Source of the DNA: an uncultured Gammaproteobacteria bacterium
Lineage (GTDB): Bacteria; Pseudomonadota; Gammaproteobacteria; Arenicellales; Poriferihabitantaceae
Direction: 5' to 3'
Length of the DNA stretch: 64,000 bases
Assembly: GCA_937992195.1 (NCBI GenBank)
Contig: CALKKV010000043.1
Coordinates: 1-64,000, forward strand
The position numbers and the translations under genes are program-made. This document shows positions 1 to 9,407 of the stretch, in pieces. Position 1 is the stretch's first letter. Each line of letters begins with the position of its first letter. Below the pieces are notes generated by a model that worked only from the letters and a program-made list of their open reading frames with translations, had not been told where the DNA came from and did no database searches.

Positions 1-192
1 GTAATCAGGCGCACCATCACTATCGGTATCAGGGCCACCTGTTGAGTCGCCCTCGATAGAGTCTGGAATACCATCATTATCAGAATCTGTTTCGCGGAAG
101 TCTGGGGTGCCATCACTATCCGTATCTGGACCACCATTGCTATCACCTTCGATTGAATCTGGGATTCCATCATTATCTGAATCGGTATCACG
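1..192 (-). repeat. Tandem 96-bp coding repeat (32-residue TSP3 unit)
   Basis: Bases 1-96 and 97-192 align with only scattered substitutions and no gaps, giving a 32-residue period that reads TDSDNDGIPDSIEGDS followed by a second DTDSDG calcium loop. The more distal repeats (200-850) are diverged in sequence and spacing. Near-identity at the window edge suggests recent duplication and probably more copies to the left. Confidence 0.8.
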
Positions 193-3039
193 ATAGTCGT
201 TTTCGCCGTCACCATCTGTGTCTTCGTATGCATCCAGCGGATCATCAACGCCATTGCTCGCGTCCCATAGCTGATCTGCATCGTCTACGTCGTCATATTG
301 GTTTTGCAAACCATCACTGTCCGTATCACCTGTATCACCAGTCGCTGGCAATCCGCTTTCAAAGCTATCAGGAATACCGTCATCATCGGAATCCGAATCT
401 AGATAATCCGATACTCCGTCACTGTCAGTATCTTCCGGCGCATCAAACGTGCCGCCAAAAGTTGTGTCGTTATCGTCGAACACATCAAGTACACCATCAC
501 TATCCGCATCGGCTGTCGCTGTGCTTGGGTCCTGAAAAGCTGCAGTCGGATCCGCTTCTACGGTATCAACGATACCGTCGTTATCCGAATCAATATCGAC
601 ATAGTCTTGCGAACCATCACTGTCAGTATCTACCGGGTCAGTCCCAGTATCCGCTGAAAGATCACCGTCTTCAAAAACATCGATAATGCCATCATCATCA
701 GAGTCCGCTTGACCATCTTCGCCAAGACTCACCGTACCATCGCTGTTTATGTCAGCAGCAATACCTGCTGCGTCACCGCTTTCAACGAGGTCACTAATAC
801 CATCATTATCTGAATCAAGATCTACGTGATCACCAACTCCGTCACCATCGGTGTCGCGCACTGTTTCATAATTAATCTCATGTACTGCAAGTGTGACATT
901 TGAATTTGCGCCATTTTGCTTCCAAGAATCAAACTCTATTCGAGTTGCTCCTTCAACAAATATCTCCAGGGTTTGAACTGTAAGATCAGGATTGGTTGAC
1001 TGGATGCCGTCACTGGTATACCTAAAGTCCGCTCCACTGGTCACTACTCCGGGAGTAATGTTTGAAAAGTTACTTGCGTCCAAGGTGATAGGATTACCGT
1101 CTGCATCGAATGCGCGGAATTCAACAGTATCAGCAAAGTCAATACCCGAGAGCGTGAAACCAACACCGCCAGAATCCTCGGCCAAATCAAAATCTAGTGC
1201 ATACGTCGAAAATTGTGTCGCACCATTCGCATCACCTTGTGTATTTTGTACCTGCAAATATAAATAGTCAGTCGGAACCCCTTGTTGCGGACCGTCGCGT
1301 AGCTCAACCCCATCATTCCACTGGATATCATTAGTGCCCCCAGTAACTAATGATGCGGTGAAATCAAAACTACCAACAACATTTCCATCAGCGTCTTGCA
1401 GCTCCCCGAGATCTTCAAGCAACAGCGATTCTGCCGTAGGATCCTGATCATCAGGAGAATCTATCAAATCCGTGTTGGTGGCAACTCCTGAGGTATTTAG
1501 ATCATCAACCGTACTATCATAAGCAAAGTTTCCTTCTTCGGTATCTAATATGCCGTCATTATCACTATCCAGATCATCAGCATCTGGTACACCATCACCA
1601 TCAACGCCCAACACACCCGCAAACGCAAACGCGTTACCCGCGTTGAGCGCTGCTGCTACTTCGATATCGCCTGTTGCGACTTCAAGCTCCCAGTCTCCGC
1701 CCGCAGCGGCATTACCGGTCAAGTCATCGGAAGCAGCCACATCCGCTTTGGTTAAATCAGCGAATGCTTCAAGAAATTCATTACCACCATGATCACCAAC
1801 ATCACAGCCGTAAAGTAGAATATCGCCGTTGTCCGCGAGTGCTTCACCCCATTGGGCTACCAGCTCTGCGTAATCATCCAGGTTATCTAACCCAATTGAC
1901 TCATTGCCCAGACGCACCTGTCCTGTAGAACCATGTGAAATCACATGGACGCCAGCAAGCTCATTTAGGTTATCTAGGGTTTGGGTAATTTGATCTACGG
2001 CGCTTTCATCAGTTTGCAAAACTACAACCAATGTACCGTCTATAAATATATGACTAGGGAGCGCTTGTTGCTCAGCGGCTTCTACCTCTTCATCTGATAC
2101 TTCAGGCGCTTCTGCTAACGGATCATTGTCGTCGTAAGAGAATTCGCCAAGCAGGTTTTCCAAACTATCTTCATCAACATCAATGGCTGCCCCGGAATTG
2201 CCATTGCTCAAAGAAGTTTGCTCTAGATCAGCAAGAACACCTGCTAAAAGATCTTCGTATCCTTCGATCGATGCGTCAATAAAAATCACTTCTTCTACAT
2301 CGGCATCATCATAGTCAACTATATCCGTGTCGACCTCTGTAATTACAGCAGCTTCTTCGGCTGCGTTTTCTTCAATTTCTTCTATTTCTTCTTCATTTAC
2401 TACGCTCTCTACACTATCTACACTATCCTGGCTTGGTGGTGCTTGGGCTTGAGGAACAACAGGCTCTATCAGGTCCTCATCATCTTCATTCACGTTTTGA
2501 GAATCAATTTCATCACCAAACTCTTCTTCTATAACCTCCAGCTCAGCTGAAGCTTCTTCCAGCAACTCTGCTGATGCAAGTTCATCACTAAAAACAGGCT
2601 GAACGTCTACCTCTAGTAACTCTGCTCCAGCTGCTTCATCTTCTTCGATAGCTGCCTCTAGCGCCTCTAAATCTTCAGAACTGTCTCCATCCTCAATGGC
2701 ACTCTCTTCATCAAGTGCGGCAACAGAATCTTCCGTGCTTGACTCTTCAGATTCGTCCAGCGCAACAGTATCTGCTTCAGCGGTGGGTTCACTTGCTGCA
2801 GACTGCTCTGGGGCAGGTGCTTCCGCCGGAATAGGTAAGCTCTCTTCAGCGCCATTTACAGCTTCATCCAGGAGATCGTCCGCGACGATCGCACCAGCTG
2901 CCGCGTCAAACATCTGACGTTTTTCTAGCGTCAGGAGTAAATTCGGTCGATAAAATCCAGTTCGATAACGCTTATAAAGTTCACGAACATCTGAAGATAT
3001 TGGGTTTAGCTTAGCTGAACTCGGCTTTTTTTCTTTCAC
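1..3039 (-). CDS. Giant surface/secreted protein with DUF4347 and thrombospondin type 3 repeats (N-terminal 1013 aa, C-terminus outside window)
   Basis: The frame is open from a GTG at 3039 to the window edge. A stop lies two codons upstream and an AGGTG ribosome binding site precedes the GTG, so the start is firm. Residues 25-40 carry LLLTLEKRQMFDAAAG, which resembles the LEPR-type N-terminal motif of many giant bacterial surface proteins. Residues 45-320 are very acidic and low in complexity. Residues about 330-480 match DUF4347, with ISHG (His369) and LYGC (Cys412), the His-Gly and Gly-Cys pair of caspase-like folds, then ASDDLTG. One TSP3 repeat follows, then a roughly 200-residue unassigned domain, then from about 725 an array of DxDxDG calcium-binding repeats. 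No classical signal peptide is seen, which with the upstream TolC gene suggests type I-like export (inference). The C-terminal secretion signal, if any, lies outside. Function unknown; adhesin-like is most likely. Confidence 0.88.
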   Translation of the reverse strand, partial: MKEKKPSSAKLNPISSDVRELYKRYRTGFYRPNLLLTLEKRQMFDAAAGAIVADDLLDEAVNGAEESLPIPAEAPAPEQSAASEPTAEADTVALDESEESSTEDSVAALDEESAIEDGDSSEDLEALEAAIEEDEAAGAELLEVDVQPVFSDELASAELLEEASAELEVIEEEFGDEIDSQNVNEDDEDLIEPVVPQAQAPPSQDSVDSVESVVNEEEIEEIEENAAEEAAVITEVDTDIVDYDDADVEEVIFIDASIEGYEDLLAGVLADLEQTSLSNGNSGAAIDVDEDSLENLLGEFSYDDNDPLAEAPEVSDEEVEAAEQQALPSHIFIDGTLVVVLQTDESAVDQITQTLDNLNELAGVHVISHGSTGQVRLGNESIGLDNLDDYAELVAQWGEALADNGDILLYGCDVGDHGGNEFLEAFADLTKADVAASDDLTGNAAAGGDWELEVATGDIEVAAALNAGNAFAFAGVLGVDGDGVPDADDLDSDNDGILDTEEGNFAYDSTVDDLNTSGVATNTDLIDSPDDQDPTAESLLLEDLGELQDADGNVVGSFDFTASLVTGGTNDIQWNDGVELRDGPQQGVPTDYLYLQVQNTQGDANGATQFSTYALDFDLAEDSGGVGFTLSGIDFADTVEFRAFDADGNPITLDASNFSNITPGVVTSGADFRYTSDGIQSTNPDLTVQTLEIFVEGATRIEFDSWKQNGANSNVTLAVHEINYETVRDTDGDGVGDHVDLDSDNDGISDLVESGDAAGIAADINSDGTVSLGEDGQADSDDDGIIDVFEDGDLSADTGTDPVDTDSDGSQDYVDIDSDNDGIVDTVEADPTAAFQDPSTATADADSDGVLDVFDDNDTTFGGTFDAPEDTDSDGVSDYLDSDSDDDGIPDSFESGLPATGDTGDTDSDGLQNQYDDVDDADQLWDASNGVDDPLDAYEDTDGDGENDYRDTDSDNDGIPDSIEGDSNGGPDTDSDGTPDFRETDSDNDGIPDSIEGDSTGGPDTDSDGAPDY

Positions 3040-3245
3040 GTTTCACCTGCTATAAAAGCATTCAAAATAATTTAATGCGGGTATCGCCTTTTGCTCATTT
3101 ACCCGCGCAAATACAACTTTATTTTCTCTAAAGTTAGGCAAAATTTAATCTACCAACGCTTTAGATACATCTCGATATTTGAATTTTACCGAGACAGACT
3201 TTTCTACTCTCAATTTTAGTCTGAGAAGTCAACCATACTCAACAG

Positions 3246-3289
3246 AAAAACTGCCTCTAAAGCATTGATATGAAAAAGTTTTAGAGGCA
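3246..3289 (-). terminator. Rho-independent terminator between the tolC-like gene and the giant gene
   Basis: Ten-base perfect arms TGCCTCTAAA (3252-3261) and TTTAGAGGCA (3280-3289) enclose an 18-base loop. On the minus strand the stem is followed by GTTTTTC. It lies 39 bases past the stop of the tolC-like gene, so the giant gene probably has its own promoter in 3040-3245. The long loop lowers certainty. Confidence 0.6.
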
Positions 3290-3327
3290 ACAAGATAAAC
3301 GGTTGTTTAATTAGAATAAGTGGTTTC

Positions 3328-4860
3328 TCAGAAGAAGTCGTTATTCAATCTAATCCACTGAGACTCAAATGCCGCACCAGAAGTCGCTGCATCTCCATCC
3401 ACCTCCGGGATAATATCCAAACCAATAGAATTCAAGATCCTTGCGAAAGCGGATTGTGTCTCTGCATACGCATAATTAGTTCGAAGTTGCGAAACCAATG
3501 CATCGGTTCTTGCACGAATCTTATCTAGGTCCGTCTCTTTCGAACTTGCTGACAAGATGTCCGCCATTTCTTGATTCACATCCGACAACTCCTGGCTTGC
3601 ACGATAACGCTGTAAGCTCAACTCATATCGCTTTAGCGATAGTCTTACCTGGGTCATCACCGCCATCGATAATGCCAATCTTCGTGCATCAGCTAGATCA
3701 ACCTGGGCCTGGCGAAACTTCTTCTCAGCCTGCACACCAAAAAGTCCTAGGATATTCCAGGAAAAATCCCAGCTAAAGTCTTCCCATTCATTATTGATCA
3801 AGAAGTCGTTCGCATTACGATGATAACCAACACCAACTTGAAGAGTTGGCAAGAAACGCAACATCGCTTTCTTCACTTCAAGCTGTGAAATGCGCAATCG
3901 GTAGTCTTCTTCTCTTAACTCAGGACGCATCAATAGCGCGTTATCGGCCAAACTCTCATAAGGACGCGTAATATCTTTCGGCTCCAAGTCTTCGCTCGGA
4001 CTCGACAGAGTAAAGTCCGCTTTCGGATGTACATTGATCAGTGCCGCCAAACGAATCTTCGCCAGCCCCATGCGCTCTTGTAATTCATATAGGGAATTTC
4101 GAATCCCAAGCAGACTCGCTTGATAACGCAGCGCTTCCTGACGACTTTGGCTTTGGCTCTGTGCCAGTGCATTCGATTGATTCAACGCTCCTTCAACCGA
4201 ACCAATCAGGCTGCCCATATTGTCTTCCAGCTCTTGTGCGATCCACGCTTTCCAATACGCGTCCACCACATCTTGCGTGATGTTTTGCAGTGTCTTTCTC
4301 TGGCGCTCTTTCGCAATCTCTACTTCTGCACTCGACTGACGTGCTGAGTGGTAGCTCAAACCAAAATCTAAAACATTCCACAAGAGTTCGAGATCTTGTG
4401 TCTCGGTGGTACGTTCCTGACTGGTCGACGGCGGTAAGCTTTCTTCACCGGTTTCAGTATTAATACTTCGCGCACCCGGATCATTGCTCCGGCGGTTATA
4501 GCCAGCGCTCGCAACCAGGTCTGGCAGTAATTCTCTGTTGGAGAAATCAAGCTGTTTAGTCGCCACCGCCAACTCCATAAACTTCACGCGACTATCCAGG
4601 TTGTAGCGCATTGATCGGATAATCGCTTCGCCGAGACCCAAAGAACCCGAAATCGGCTCCTGATCTTGAAACAGCGCTGCTTTGTCCGCGGCTATCCGGG
4701 CGTTGACGTCACCGGTGGTAACCGGGTCACTCTTCACCGAGCATCCTGCAATCAGTAAGGCAAATGACAGCCCTACTCCCATTCGGCTCAACTTTCCTGC
4801 GAACTTCGGCTGAAAACCACTACCTGCTGTGGTAGTAGTGACTTCGCTTTGAATTGGCAT
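3328..4860 (-). CDS. TolC-family outer membrane efflux/secretion lipoprotein
   Basis: A 510-residue outer-membrane factor of the TolC/OprM type. ATG at 4860 was chosen because TTAGGAG sits 7 bases upstream; a longer in-frame extension to 4911 lacks a ribosome binding site and overlaps the tail of the preceding gene. The N-terminus has a basic stretch, a hydrophobic segment and a lipobox LIAGC with the lipidated Cys at residue 40; Ser at +2 fits outer-membrane sorting. Two OEP repeats follow, each rich in long amphipathic helices (QRKTLQNITQDVVDAYWKAW in the first half). The family forms trimeric exit ducts for type I secretion or RND/MacB pumps. Lying between a LysM-like gene and the giant TSP3 gene, it most plausibly serves export of that protein; no ABC or membrane-fusion partner is inside the window. 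Confidence 0.88.
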   Translation of the reverse strand: MPIQSEVTTTTAGSGFQPKFAGKLSRMGVGLSFALLIAGCSVKSDPVTTGDVNARIAADKAALFQDQEPISGSLGLGEAIIRSMRYNLDSRVKFMELAVATKQLDFSNRELLPDLVASAGYNRRSNDPGARSINTETGEESLPPSTSQERTTETQDLELLWNVLDFGLSYHSARQSSAEVEIAKERQRKTLQNITQDVVDAYWKAWIAQELEDNMGSLIGSVEGALNQSNALAQSQSQSRQEALRYQASLLGIRNSLYELQERMGLAKIRLAALINVHPKADFTLSSPSEDLEPKDITRPYESLADNALLMRPELREEDYRLRISQLEVKKAMLRFLPTLQVGVGYHRNANDFLINNEWEDFSWDFSWNILGLFGVQAEKKFRQAQVDLADARRLALSMAVMTQVRLSLKRYELSLQRYRASQELSDVNQEMADILSASSKETDLDKIRARTDALVSQLRTNYAYAETQSAFARILNSIGLDIIPEVDGDAATSGAAFESQWIRLNNDFF

Positions 4861-4879
4861 CAATATACTCCTAAGTTGA

Positions 4880-5218
4880 TTAATTATGTGTAGGTAATAA
4901 GTAAGTGGCACTGAAGCTACATTCCAATCTTGGAACCAATCTTGGAATTCGGTGCTTCGTATTAGGATCGATCAGGTTTAAATCTTTGGTCAGATCAGGG
5001 TTCACTTCAAAAGTCAGCGGCCACTTCGTGAGCTGGCCATAGGCTTTCTCGGCGATGTTCCACAAGGTCTCGTTTTCTGTTTTGGGTAAAAGACTGAGGC
5101 CGAACAAACTGATGCGGTATCTTTTAAAAATACCGGTATTACTCTCCTTTCTGTCTTCGTCTGGCATTCCAATTTTCTTTGACACTCGGTGTTCCCCGTA
5201 ACGTTGCTCTGTCACCAA
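4880..5218 (-). CDS. Small LysM-like domain protein
   Basis: The residues ENETLWNIAEKAYGQLTKWP, followed by FEVNPDLTKDLNLIDPNTKHRIP, fit the LysM fold as found in xkdP/YgaU-like proteins (xDTLWxIAxxxYGxxxxWPxIFExNxDLIxDPxLIxPGxxxxIP). The start is uncertain: TTG at 5218 has no ribosome binding site, GTG at 5185 has GGGGA 8 bases upstream, and an ATG lies at about 5167. No signal peptide is evident for any of them. Its stop is 19 bases before the tolC-like start, so the two are probably co-transcribed. LysM domains bind peptidoglycan glycans; a role in anchoring or guiding the secretion apparatus is inference. Confidence 0.6.
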   Translation of the reverse strand: MVTEQRYGEHRVSKKIGMPDEDRKESNTGIFKRYRISLFGLSLLPKTENETLWNIAEKAYGQLTKWPLTFEVNPDLTKDLNLIDPNTKHRIPRLVPRLECSFSATYLLPTHN

Positions 5219-5866
5219 GTAGTAAGAACACTACGATATCAGCGACAAACTATCTAAAAACTCTTATGCCAGCTTAATCTAGCCGGCACTGAACATGCTG
5301 ACTAAAATAGAATCGATACGCCTGAGGAGCTGAATGATTGAAAGACATTCAGCTAATTAAGGTGCGCTCTATACAGCAATTAATTCCGCTTTTTTTCTAC
5401 TTCTTTAGAAGTGGCGCAGATATTAATAGAGTCAGCTCCCTCACTGGACGTAAATGTATCATGCCAAACACATTAAAAAAACAAAGGTTCAGAAGAAGTT
5501 CAGCAAATGTTTCAAGTCGTTACATTTGCGAATTTTAGCGCTATCAATCGACTTAAATATCATCTCTTCTAGCTCGTCTGCACCATCCATAAACATCAGC
5601 TACGGATAAAATCCAACTCTTTCACGATGCAATGTATTGTTTCGACGACGAACGGTGATAACGCACTATCGTGCAGGAAAAAACCACCTACTCTTCAAAA
5701 TGGGCCGACAGCAAAAACCGACCTTTCAGTTCAGTTTTAACGAGAACGAAATTAAGCAGCACGCATAATAATGTGTGTTTGAGTCACTAAAAATCAATTT
5801 AACATTAATTAGAAAACCCGATAGAGACCTACCCTGTCGAGAATTGATCACAAGAGATTGTACAAA
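5219..5866. other. 648-bp non-coding stretch upstream of the LysM-tolC operon
   Basis: No convincing gene. It must hold the promoter of the LysM-tolC genes and the 3' end of the GT41-like operon, all read leftward. An imperfect inverted repeat, GCCAGCT / AGCCGGC around TAATCT, sits at 5268-5287 and could be an operator or hairpin. A short plus-strand reading frame at 5338-5538 shows no recognisable protein character and I do not call it. Confidence 0.5.
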
Positions 5867-7621
5867 TCAGAGAGATTTCAACGTTGACAAGAATCCTGTG
5901 ACGAACTCTTCTACCTGAGTCAGTGAAGAGTTCTTTAGTCGCTCACGCATACCTGCCCTACTCGTGACAAGCGAGTGGGTGTCGTTACCAAGCGCAGCAG
6001 CTATAGAGATATAACTTTGCACGTTGTCAGAAAGATTTTCAGACATTCCAGCAGCGGTCAGAATACTTCCGGCCCTGGAATTTCCAATAATACGGTTGGC
6101 CATCGCAACTGGAGAAACGCCCATCCACATTGCATCTGCAAGCGCCATATCATCAGTAAGCGGAAACGGGCTAAGAAGCACATCGATTTCAGAATAGCAC
6201 TGGTATCGATCTTCAAAGCGCGACGATCGTGCTTGATAACTCACGCGATCATTTTTCACCCCAGCGGCTTCCAATAAATGATTTAACCTCTCTTCAATCA
6301 ATGTCGAAGGCAACAGCGAGTGGAAGATTTTAAGTTGTGCATTGGGCACCTGGTTCAAAATTTCGGCGAAAGCTCTAACGCTCGCTTCATTAATCTGCAT
6401 AGGGTTAGCAACCACGCCATAGGTTACCGCTTGACCTTTTTCTACGGGAGCAGCAGTTAACTTCGCATCATTGTCTCCGTCGTAAAAATACTGCCCCGAC
6501 GACAGGTGAATCAGACGTTCAGAGAGATCGACTTTATTGTCGTTATTGGTTTCACTTTTACGCTTTGTTAACGGCTGTATTTGCTTATCAACAAAGGCTT
6601 GATCCATTAGCGCTAATTCAGTATTTGAATGAAAAAACGGCCAGCTAATTTGTAAAGGAGCGAGGCGAGTTCTATAGAGCTGCATCAAATTATTTGGCAC
6701 TTGACCAGCACTATCGATTAACACATCGACAGGGTTTTTATTGAACAGCGCAAGAGACCCTTTCGGCGCCGCTGAATCTGTTTGATGAACTTCATCAAAT
6801 AACGAAGTGTACTCATCAGGATCGATCATTGGATTATTGCAAAACCCGATAAACTCAAATTCACTCTGCGCACGAAAACGTCGGAATGCCGGCAAAACAT
6901 ACTTCAAAAATGGCAGGCTAAAAGGACAAACAATCCAGGCGATCCTGGTCACCCCTTCCTTAACACCTTTATCTGATCGATTAATCAATGCCGAGCGCAT
7001 TAAAGCAATCTCACGATCTATTTCCTGCTCTGAAATATCGGCATCGTTCATCATTGCAAACAACCGCCGCTGCAGCGGATAAGTATAGCCAGGCCGCAAT
7101 AGCCTTAGGCGCATCGAAAGGTCGATTAACTCATCGCCTAATCCATAGTCCACATAGAGCTGCGAGAGAAACTCCAAGGCACGTTGATGTCCTGGTTCAT
7201 TATCAAGCACATGCTCAAAACTCGCCACTGCCTGTTTCAATTTCCCGGCGCCGCGATAGGCAAGCCCAGCATTGAAATAATACATATTACGCTCTGGCGC
7301 GATCTCAAGCGCTGCGTCAAAATACCTGCTCGCCTTTTCATATTGCCTGGTTTCCAGCAGCAAACAAGCGTAGTTGTTGTGCGCGGCCTCTGACTTTGGC
7401 CACAGCTCACATACCTTATCGCCAATCTCGAGCATTTCCTGCTTTCTTTCCAGCTTAAGCAGGCAATCAAATCGACCCAACCACGCTAAAGCATCTTCTT
7501 CGTTGCGCTCTAGCAACTCATCCCATTCGGCTATTGATCCGACGTAGTCCTTTACGCTGTACTTCTTTCTAGCACGCGCAACCGCTTGACGCCGGGTTTT
7601 AAATAAATAATTAGGCTTCAT
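5867..7621 (-). CDS. TPR protein with degenerate GT41 (SPINDLY/OGT-like) domain, probable pseudoenzyme
   Basis: A 584-residue protein with TPR-like helices over residues 30-180, followed by a region that aligns along its length with the GT41 domain of the upstream neighbour: RLAPLQISW against RPAPVQISW, and AMWMGVSPVAMAN against ALWMNTPVISLGG. The residues expected to bind or activate UDP-sugar are replaced: the HPVSFF histidine is gone (PFSLPF), DLAGH reads DSAGQ, the FNNLAK lysine reads MQ, and the GGKTHASR loop reads NRIIGNSR. It starts with an ATG overlapping the neighbour's end by 11 bases, so translation is coupled. This fits a non-catalytic partner, comparable in principle to GtfA/GtfB-type pairs (inference). 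Alternatively it is a transferase with a shifted donor specificity. Confidence 0.75.
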   Translation of the reverse strand: MKPNYLFKTRRQAVARARKKYSVKDYVGSIAEWDELLERNEEDALAWLGRFDCLLKLERKQEMLEIGDKVCELWPKSEAAHNNYACLLLETRQYEKASRYFDAALEIAPERNMYYFNAGLAYRGAGKLKQAVASFEHVLDNEPGHQRALEFLSQLYVDYGLGDELIDLSMRLRLLRPGYTYPLQRRLFAMMNDADISEQEIDREIALMRSALINRSDKGVKEGVTRIAWIVCPFSLPFLKYVLPAFRRFRAQSEFEFIGFCNNPMIDPDEYTSLFDEVHQTDSAAPKGSLALFNKNPVDVLIDSAGQVPNNLMQLYRTRLAPLQISWPFFHSNTELALMDQAFVDKQIQPLTKRKSETNNDNKVDLSERLIHLSSGQYFYDGDNDAKLTAAPVEKGQAVTYGVVANPMQINEASVRAFAEILNQVPNAQLKIFHSLLPSTLIEERLNHLLEAAGVKNDRVSYQARSSRFEDRYQCYSEIDVLLSPFPLTDDMALADAMWMGVSPVAMANRIIGNSRAGSILTAAGMSENLSDNVQSYISIAAALGNDTHSLVTSRAGMRERLKNSSLTQVEEFVTGFLSTLKSL

Positions 7622-9407
7622 TTTCGAGAATAATCTTTTTCTCTTGCTGTTGAATCTGCACCCACTCTATCCACTGTTGTCGCAGAATTCTGGCTACACT
7701 TTGAGAGAATCGTTGTTGGTTAGTTATTGAAGAGTCAGCTAATTTTTTACGTAGCGACTTTCTATATTGATTAAGCTGATCGGTGTCATTTGACAATGAA
7801 ACCGCTTTGTCAATGTAATGCTGTTTATCGCTCACCGCCAGCTCAGCAACACCTGTATAGTTCAAAATCGAATGCCCCACCCTGCTAGCATGAGTTTTTC
7901 CACCCAATGAGATCACTGGCGTATTCATCCATAATGCTTCAAACGTGGTAGTCGTTCCATTGTAGGGAAAACTGTCTAGAGCAATATCTACATTCGCATA
8001 CTGCTTGAGATGCCCTTCCAATTTTGATTGCGAGGTCTTAAAGCTGATTCGATTTTTCTTGATCCCGCGCTTTTCAAATTGATCTACAAAATATTGCTTA
8101 ACCCAGGGGTCCTTTAGCTCTCGGCGCTTTATCAGTAGCTTTGAGTCTGGCACCCTAGTCAAAATCTCGCACCACATATCTATACACTGCTCAGAAATTT
8201 TAGCCAAATTGTTAAAACTACCAAAGGTGATGTAGCCATTTTTCTCGACCGGTGATTCTTCCGATGGCTCGGGGGTACGCGGACTTGGAACGTAGCAAAG
8301 AAAACCTCCGTCGACCCGCAGTAGTTTCTCAGTATGATAAGTATCGCTTTCAGAAACAGGATCGGCGTAACGGTCGGTCAACCTAAAATCAATTCCACTT
8401 GATCCGGTCGTTGCCGGGTATCCAAGCCAGGAGATCTGTACAGGCGCCGGCCGCATATGAAACACATCCAACCTTCCAGATCCTGTGTGACCAGCAAGGT
8501 CAAACAGAATATCAATTTGATCGTCTAAAATTTGCTTAGCGACATTCTGCGCGCCGATACCAGCGATATTTCGAAACTCGTCTACTTGAGATGCGATCGA
8601 TTTGGTAATGTTATCCGGCTTTACCACGTCGCTGTAGGCAAAGACCTTGAACTGATCTCGATCAAGCTCTTTAAACAATGGTTCAACAAAAAAGCTTACA
8701 GGGTGAGCACAGTAGTCAGGACTTACAAAGCCAACGTTCAAACGCTTCTTTTCACCGAGCTCATTTAAATAAACGCCTACCCCTTTTTCAAAGGTATGTG
8801 TGTATTGTTCACCCCAAGTCTTTGCATCGGCGAAAATCATTTTAGGATTTTGTTCCGCCAGATAGTTTCTCCAGAACAACATACGCGCGTACATGTAATG
8901 CGGTTGTGGCGTCAACATCATTGCCCGTTGAATCGAGCGAAGACCCTCTTTCACCTGACCAGCTTTACACAGGATACTTCCCATTTTCTGGTAAGCAAAT
9001 GCGTAATGAGGATTCAGTTTTAAAGCTTGTTCAAGCAGTTCAACTGCTTCGCCGTGCCGATCTAAAGTGTTGTATCCAACGGCTAGGTTAGCCAGCGTCA
9101 CGACATTGTTTGGCTGAAGCTTATTGGACTTATCAAGAGCCTTCATTGCTTGATCAACATTTCCCGACTTTAGCAATACATTGCCAAGTAAGAAATGCAT
9201 CTTCGCATCATCGGAGTGCTTCGCTATGTAAGACTCCGCTAAGGAGGCCGCTCTCTCAAGCAAGCCTTTACGCACTAAATGACGAAACAACTTTTCTGCC
9301 TGCGCTGAATCTAAATCAGAAACAGGCAGGTTGTTGGCGTCGATTGCGCGGGTTGCAGCATCAAATTGCTTGCTCTCGATCAGTTGATTAACAGTGTCGT
9401 TTGCCAT
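7611..9407 (-). CDS. TPR-containing GT41 family glycosyltransferase (SPINDLY/OGT-like)
   Basis: A 598-residue protein. ATG 9407 was chosen over an upstream TTG at 9425. Residues 1-200 hold TPR units (for example AVGYNTLDRHGEAVELLEQA), and residues about 225-580 hold the GT41 catalytic region with the family marks intact: VSPDYCAHPVSFF (His235), DLAGHTGSGRLD (His307), RPAPVQISWLGYPAT, FNNLAKI (Lys403, equivalent to the essential lysine of human OGT), and GGKTHASRVGHS. Family members transfer sugar from a UDP donor to Ser/Thr (OGT) or Asn (HMW1C-like) of proteins, in the cytoplasm. The neighbouring secreted giant protein is an attractive substrate, since HMW1C-type GT41 enzymes are often encoded next to their adhesins. 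It is the first gene of a two-gene operon with the degenerate copy. Confidence 0.88.
   Translation of the reverse strand: MANDTVNQLIESKQFDAATRAIDANNLPVSDLDSAQAEKLFRHLVRKGLLERAASLAESYIAKHSDDAKMHFLLGNVLLKSGNVDQAMKALDKSNKLQPNNVVTLANLAVGYNTLDRHGEAVELLEQALKLNPHYAFAYQKMGSILCKAGQVKEGLRSIQRAMMLTPQPHYMYARMLFWRNYLAEQNPKMIFADAKTWGEQYTHTFEKGVGVYLNELGEKKRLNVGFVSPDYCAHPVSFFVEPLFKELDRDQFKVFAYSDVVKPDNITKSIASQVDEFRNIAGIGAQNVAKQILDDQIDILFDLAGHTGSGRLDVFHMRPAPVQISWLGYPATTGSSGIDFRLTDRYADPVSESDTYHTEKLLRVDGGFLCYVPSPRTPEPSEESPVEKNGYITFGSFNNLAKISEQCIDMWCEILTRVPDSKLLIKRRELKDPWVKQYFVDQFEKRGIKKNRISFKTSQSKLEGHLKQYANVDIALDSFPYNGTTTTFEALWMNTPVISLGGKTHASRVGHSILNYTGVAELAVSDKQHYIDKAVSLSNDTDQLNQYRKSLRKKLADSSITNQQRFSQSVARILRQQWIEWVQIQQQEKKIILENEA

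Follow-up and report, generated by a model that had tools for sequence, protein, structure and literature searches.

The window, that is, the whole stretch of DNA analysed here, is 64 kb long and opens contig C43, which belongs to the fragmented 3.76 Mb genome of a marine-type proteobacterium. The window starts at base 1 of that contig, and the locus can be read further to the left only via other contigs and genomes. The minus strand of this end encodes, in order, a GT41 glycosyltransferase, an overlapping GT41-like protein (hereafter GT41'), a small ORF with a LysM region, a TolC-family lipoprotein and, cut off at the contig start, a giant DUF4347/TSP3 protein, with a 648-bp gap after the GT41 pair (Table 1). 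An earlier sequence-only reading had placed these ORFs on one strand in this order, which is correct, as are its calls of the GT41, TolC and giant genes; the LysM partner, the HMW1C label and the type I label that it attached to the locus did not hold. Taken as a whole, that observation is partly confirmed and mostly right, and the interpretation built on it is partly supported. It had also raised the question of gene order in relatives: the sister species (G002) keeps the order GT41, GT41', giant with a gap of 603 bp, and because of this shared order and similar spacing the arrangement goes beyond chance. The intergenic DNA between GT41' and the giant shows no similarity above shuffles between the two genomes.

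Table 1. Features at the start of the window (positions counted from base 1 of contig C43)
Feature	Position	Strand	Basis
GT41 glycosyltransferase P0005, 598 aa, TPR repeats, predicted SPINDLY/OGT type, motifs intact	7611..9407	-	PF13844 205 bits; SPINDLY 355 bits
GT41-like TPR protein P0004 (GT41'), probable pseudo-enzyme partner	5867..7621	-	Motifs lost; 62% conserved in G002
Remnant ORF, best read as LysM tail of a lost giant (LysM at about 5077-4937)	4880..5218	-	DNA alignment with giant end-tolC junction on C65
TolC-family outer-membrane lipoprotein (OEP)	3328..4860	-	PF02321 97.7 bits; 90.6% identity to TolC of C65
Giant protein, truncated at the start of the contig (N-terminal 1013 aa)	1..3039	-	DUF4347, then TSP3-like repeats
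N-terminal leader RPNLLLTLEKRQMFDAAAGA of the giant, proposed export signal	2890..2949	-	Motif count; no hydrophobic signal peptide
DUF4347 domain of the giant	1609..2064	-	PF14252 161 bits
Acidic thrombospondin type-3-like repeats of the giant, up to contig end	1..858	-	Weak match

The GT41 protein P0005 matches the Pfam family with E 1.7e-60, combines TPR repeats with both GT41 halves and retains the motifs GHT, FGSFNNLAK and LDSFPYNGTTTT (the catalytic set tested was GHT, FGSFNN..K and LDSFPYNG). Its closest solved structure is plant SPINDLY, followed by OGT (236 bits); the HMW1C-like match scores 31.7 bits. The TPRs, the two halves and the motifs point to an enzyme of the SPINDLY/OGT type, which would attach O-linked sugars. 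An HMW1C-type N-glycosyltransferase is ruled out, given that the NCBIfam NGT model yields 38 bits vs a cut-off of 1000, SPINDLY is the closest structure and TPRs are present; the HMW1C fold differs from TPR (PMC3983070). P0004, the gene of which overlaps that of P0005 by 11 bp, is a weaker GT41 match (E 9e-13) lacking all three catalytic motifs, with GQV, YGVVANPMQI and LSPFPLTDDM in their place. Compared with the sister species, GT41 is 75% identical with low dN, and GT41' is 62% identical with dN 0.30; synonymous sites are saturated, giving no dN/dS value for these genes, and amino-acid-changing differences in GT41' are far fewer than silent ones. Because the motifs are lost yet the protein is conserved with few such differences, P0004 looks like a retained non-catalytic partner of the GT41 enzyme. 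Similar GT41/GT41-like pairs are found in G032 (L033) and G057:C9 (L162).

The TolC-family lipoprotein was called correctly from the sequence, with an OEP/TolC match of E 1e-27 and the lipobox LIAGC. Its start is probably the ATG at 4860, which gives 510 aa, and the ORF-list start at 4911 probably lies too far upstream, as indicated by the alignment with the paralogue encoded on C65 of the same genome. The two copies differ with dN/dS 0.035; purifying selection acts in this module. The small LysM ORF is best read as the leftover of a giant that suffered an internal deletion. Its LysM part, together with the DNA up to the tolC start, aligns with the junction between giant end and tolC on C65; the TAG stop of the giant is TTG in the remnant, and the frame continues across the intergenic region. 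The N-terminal half of the ORF has no good match; it bears a weak similarity to giant N-termini (KRYR...LL; shuffle fraction 0.006-0.014) and is possibly a stub of one. Pfam LysM is present at the C-terminus of four giants, above the cut-off in three, and the complete or C-terminal giants of the genus end in LysM (L042, L043, L046, L133). The domain thus belongs to the giants, a separate peptidoglycan-binding partner protein is ruled out, and what had been taken for a LysM-like protein appears to be the decayed tail of a lost giant.

The DUF4347/TSP3 identification of the window giant stands, with E 2e-47 for DUF4347 and weak TSP3 repeats; for the latter, a paralogue that is complete, on C77, reaches 293 bits. 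The N-terminus bears the leader RPNLLLTLEKRQMFDAA, and a classical hydrophobic signal peptide was found in none of the giants checked, that of the window included. The leader motif LExRx(M/L)(F/W/L)(D/S) occurs in 27 ORFs of 600 aa or more, each time among the first 150 residues, and in 0/882 shorter ORFs of the same loci, a count that is descriptive and not an independent test, the pattern having been made after inspecting several such N-termini. Its form varies with the exporter subtype (see below): FDGA/FDAA accompanies the operon lacking SecA, LWDA the C20-type SecA subtype and LSAD the more divergent SecA loci. Mainly because of this agreement, the leader is proposed to be an export signal recognised by the exporter. 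The LSAD-form giants match the NCBIfam model LEPR-XLL (NF012209) above its cut-off; the window giant (LEKRQMFDAA) yields no match to it at E<=1. A DUF4347 domain also lies within a 13,078-aa open frame (G035:C20:8699-9151).

The remaining parts of the locus are split among contigs. In the window genome, C65 carries a giant end with LysM followed by two TolC genes, HlyD and an HlyD fusion, and C13 a giant end, a tolC remnant without its interior and the start of another giant. In the sister species, C77 holds GT41, GT41' and a giant start, and C60 a giant end (TSP3, LysM) followed by TolC, HlyD and an HlyD fusion, each contig terminating within the giant. No assembly of the genus has the whole module on a single contig, and no exact end overlaps of 15-400 bases join C43, C13 and C65, the linkage of which was then based on synteny. 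Two relatives (G003 and G004) lack the window-type TolC and any full-length match to the window GT41, and in them the genes flanking C43 (M14 peptidase, Hsp20) and C65 (S41 peptidase, dehydrogenase) share a contig, with about 3.6 and 6.7 kb between them, in differing orientation. The short distance between the flanks in these relatives, which lack the module, makes a single chromosomal site for it probable. The likeliest history is insertion at that site followed, in the window genome, by expansion as giant and tolC units were duplicated and partly lost; other causes of the duplicate pattern, such as a mixture of strains in the assembly, are kept in view because C13 and C65 share 99% identity over 300 bp of their giant ends.

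An M50-protease/HlyD fusion (M50-HlyD), with HExxH intact in the alignment, is encoded in 17/109 genomes of the order. DUF4347 is found in 15 of the 109, all of them among these 17 (Fisher p 1e-16, or 1e-6 by genus, both made optimistic by relatedness). In a large genome collection, 37 M50-HlyD loci of further genomes were found; at least 17 of them show the complete set of TolC, HlyD, HlyD fusion and M50-HlyD, and at 11 a DUF4347 giant is encoded no more than 10 kb away. Cultured carriers include Nitrospirillum, Xenophilus and Azohydromonas, and the named relatives among the carriers include Arenicellales. In Nitrospirillum viridazoti CBAmc (L106), pqqB-like and radical-SAM PqqE-like ORFs were noted by eye within 10 kb of the exporter operon. 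The window genome holds all four parts of the proposed exporter, on C43/C65 and on C74 and in no single operon; transport of the giant across the envelope is a prediction from these genes, and the M50-HlyD of C74 would be the one that serves the window giant. On C74 this gene directly precedes genes for a GT41-GT2 protein and a GT4, as it does on C126 of the sister species. At this place (L044:1588-7678) the GT4 protein starts with ILFIHPNYPGQFK, and similar GT4 openings occur near exporter/GT41 loci in L080, L122 and L162. Among the matches that Foldseek listed for models of M50-HlyD and of the HlyD fusion were adaptor parts only (MacA, EmrA, MexA); the features noted in the predicted N-terminal domains are a winged-helix-like order of strands and helices and a GAF-like character.

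A second exporter subtype (C20 of the window genome, G002:C57, G003, G030, G034 and G072) consists of more distant homologues accompanied by a SecA paralogue of 635-704 aa. On C20 (L047:11506-13431, L040), the 641-aa paralogue lies beside M50-HlyD, HlyD fusion, HlyD, TolC and a DUF4347 giant of 4173 aa, an arrangement that recurs in several related genomes. A small ORF (KVRWDDSDMSTSYANVCNVSSTREEVTLLFGTNQ) that is conserved at divergent-SecA loci (L072, L079, L080) is located upstream of the HlyD-fusion gene.

These operons bear directly on the type I-like route suggested earlier, for which an ABC exporter and HlyD were expected near the giant. TolC with an HlyD adaptor is indeed linked to the giant on C65 and G002:C60. 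No HlyB-like full exporter is encoded on C20, C65, C74, C77, C13 or the left end of C43, where the contig ends, and no ABC ATPase was seen in the linked giant loci (in other genomes by ORF reading); the M50-HlyD fusion stands where the ABC exporter would be expected. As for a C-terminal signal with RTX repeats, the visible C-termini of giants are LysM, with no hemolysin-type calcium-binding Pfam match. The comparison with two-partner secretion does not carry over either, as the duct is TolC-like and no TpsB lies beside the giant, the sole ShlB match above the cut-off being on C39. Literature on DUF4347, on LEPR-XLL and on M50 with HlyD amounted to incidental papers or none, preprints and most subscription papers being outside the scope of the search, and the M50-HlyD/TolC operon accompanying leader-bearing giants is apparently undescribed and widely conserved.

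Together, the genes, their motifs and order, the co-occurrence of giants with exporter operons and the purifying selection, all directly observed, can be accommodated in a model in which the window holds one end of a chromosomal module responsible for producing, modifying and exporting giant surface proteins; we rate its chances as slightly better than even. Synthesis of the giant would take place in the cytoplasm, and a short leader (a basic stretch and RPxLLxxLExRxMFDxA) would replace a classical signal peptide. In the same compartment, O-linked sugars would be added to the giant by the SPINDLY/OGT-type GT41, which probably forms a complex with the inactive GT41'. The M50-HlyD fusion of the inner membrane would recognise the leader, a step suggested by the agreement of motif and exporter and by the predicted N-terminal fold, and its protease part may clip the leader. 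M50-HlyD, the HlyD adaptor, the second HlyD fusion and the TolC lipoprotein would form a channel through both membranes. The acidic TSP3 repeats would be exposed outside, and the C-terminal LysM would bind peptidoglycan and keep that terminus in the periplasm. We infer all four functional steps, and with them the glycosylation of the giant; the earlier linking of glycosylation, a TolC duct and a giant protein is supported in that these genes form a real locus.

The tie between GT41 and the giants has a rival explanation: the M50-HlyD/TolC operon might export the giants while the GT41 pair modifies other targets and adjoins the giant by chance of insertion, a reading that we regard as unlikely but deserving of weight. 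The sequence-only reading had named separate occurrence of GT41 and giant genes among relatives as evidence against their linkage, and such separation is seen in part. In G032 a GT41 pair adjoins an SdrD_B-type ORF without DUF4347, most giant loci have no GT41 nearby, and other GT41 genes lie beside repeat surface ORFs (G034 and G013, besides the SdrD_B case) or unrelated genes. A further GT41 gene of the window genome (C78, L045:12682-15390) adjoins an EF-P-like gene, identified by eye, as it does in the sister genome (L137), and one class of the related HMW1C-like enzymes has been reported to lack a neighbouring substrate gene (PMC3983070). Against a chance neighbourhood, 6 of the 19 GT41 loci in the 17 M50-HlyD carrier genomes lie near giant or exporter genes, which is above expectation (binomial p 7e-5 at an assumed genome coverage of 4%; 3e-3 with the two sister genomes merged): C43 and C74 of the window genome, their two counterparts in G002, a locus of G069 beside the M50 gene (L086) and one of G060 at about 8 kb. 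Those on C43, C74 and L086 touch giant or exporter genes. Within the genus, moreover, two genomes have both GT41 and the type-B TolC, and three have neither. The link between GT41 and giants is therefore supported in the genus, incomplete elsewhere and not general. In L034 and L035, GT41 genes lie beside Asn/Ser-rich ORFs with NSSNI repeats that resemble coiled-coil adhesin stalks.

Two other explanations concern the export route. A conventional type I system could export the giant via the window TolC, leaving the M50-HlyD operon to do something else; the genome does carry a type I-like ABC transporter, its strongest HlyB-like gene (C35, 632 bits, below the cut-off of 725), adjoining an HlyD-like gene. 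This system is linked to no giant, whereas HlyD and the HlyD fusion directly follow TolC behind the giant end (C65, G002:C60), all 15 giant-bearing genomes have M50-HlyD, and ORF reading of the giant operons of other genomes revealed no ABC exporter gene; we consider this route improbable. The C35 protein itself (L150:157-3198) has 1013 aa and, by eye, an N-terminal cyclic-nucleotide-binding-like region. Still less probable is that the Ala-rich FDAAAG site and the giant form a LapA/LapG-like retention system in which the site is no export signal. The leader end AAAG/AAAA resembles LapG sites, which counts for this reading, but no region of the size of a retention domain precedes the Ala-rich site, and the motif varies with the exporter subtype (LWDAT, LSAD), which argues against a LapG site.

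A broader view can be advanced tentatively, at somewhat less than even confidence: giants with LExR leaders may constitute a separate secretion class of Proteobacteria, with a TolC duct, HlyD adaptors and an inner-membrane M50-HlyD receptor replacing the ABC exporter, one subtype being driven by a SecA paralogue, another having no ATPase of its own, and coupling to GT41/pseudo-GT41 in the genus studied here. Export of very large LExR/DUF4347 proteins from Gram-negative cells is not described in the literature searched, and the conserved giant-linked operon, with M50-HlyD, a SecA paralogue in one subtype and no ABC pump, makes the question testable in cultured species, e.g. Nitrospirillum viridazoti CBAmc. 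The GT41/pseudo-GT41 pair is a possible Gram-negative parallel to the streptococcal systems that glycosylate and then export.

The locus shares features with several known systems and is distinct from each. Like the LEPR-XLL giants (NF012209), it encodes a very large protein with a short N-terminal LExR motif, but the window giant falls outside that model. The daptide M50 metalloprotease (NF041824) aligns with the N-terminal domain and M50 part of the C20 M50-HlyD fusion at 169.6 bits, below the cut-off of 300, and the fusion, which has an additional HlyD part, is associated with giants and not with small peptides. The giant adhesins of type I systems (LapA/BapA) have in common with the locus a TolC duct, HlyD-like adaptors, a giant substrate and the lack of a classical signal peptide, whereas the linked loci studied here have M50-HlyD and a second HlyD fusion, no visible ABC component and a proposed N-terminal signal. 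HMW1C/two-partner adhesin loci likewise place a GT41 gene beside a giant surface protein, with cytoplasmic glycosylation before export proposed; the window enzyme is of the TPR/SPINDLY type, TpsB is not nearby and the duct is TolC. The streptococcal accessory Sec system (GtfA/GtfB, SecA2) also combines a glycosyltransferase pair with a giant adhesin, and a SecA paralogue occurs in the C20 sister subtype; here the envelope is a Gram-negative one with TolC/HlyD, the enzymes are GT41, and the C20 SecA scores under every SecA2 cut-off. For the partner role of GT41', GtfA/GtfB may serve as an analogy (PMC6973325).
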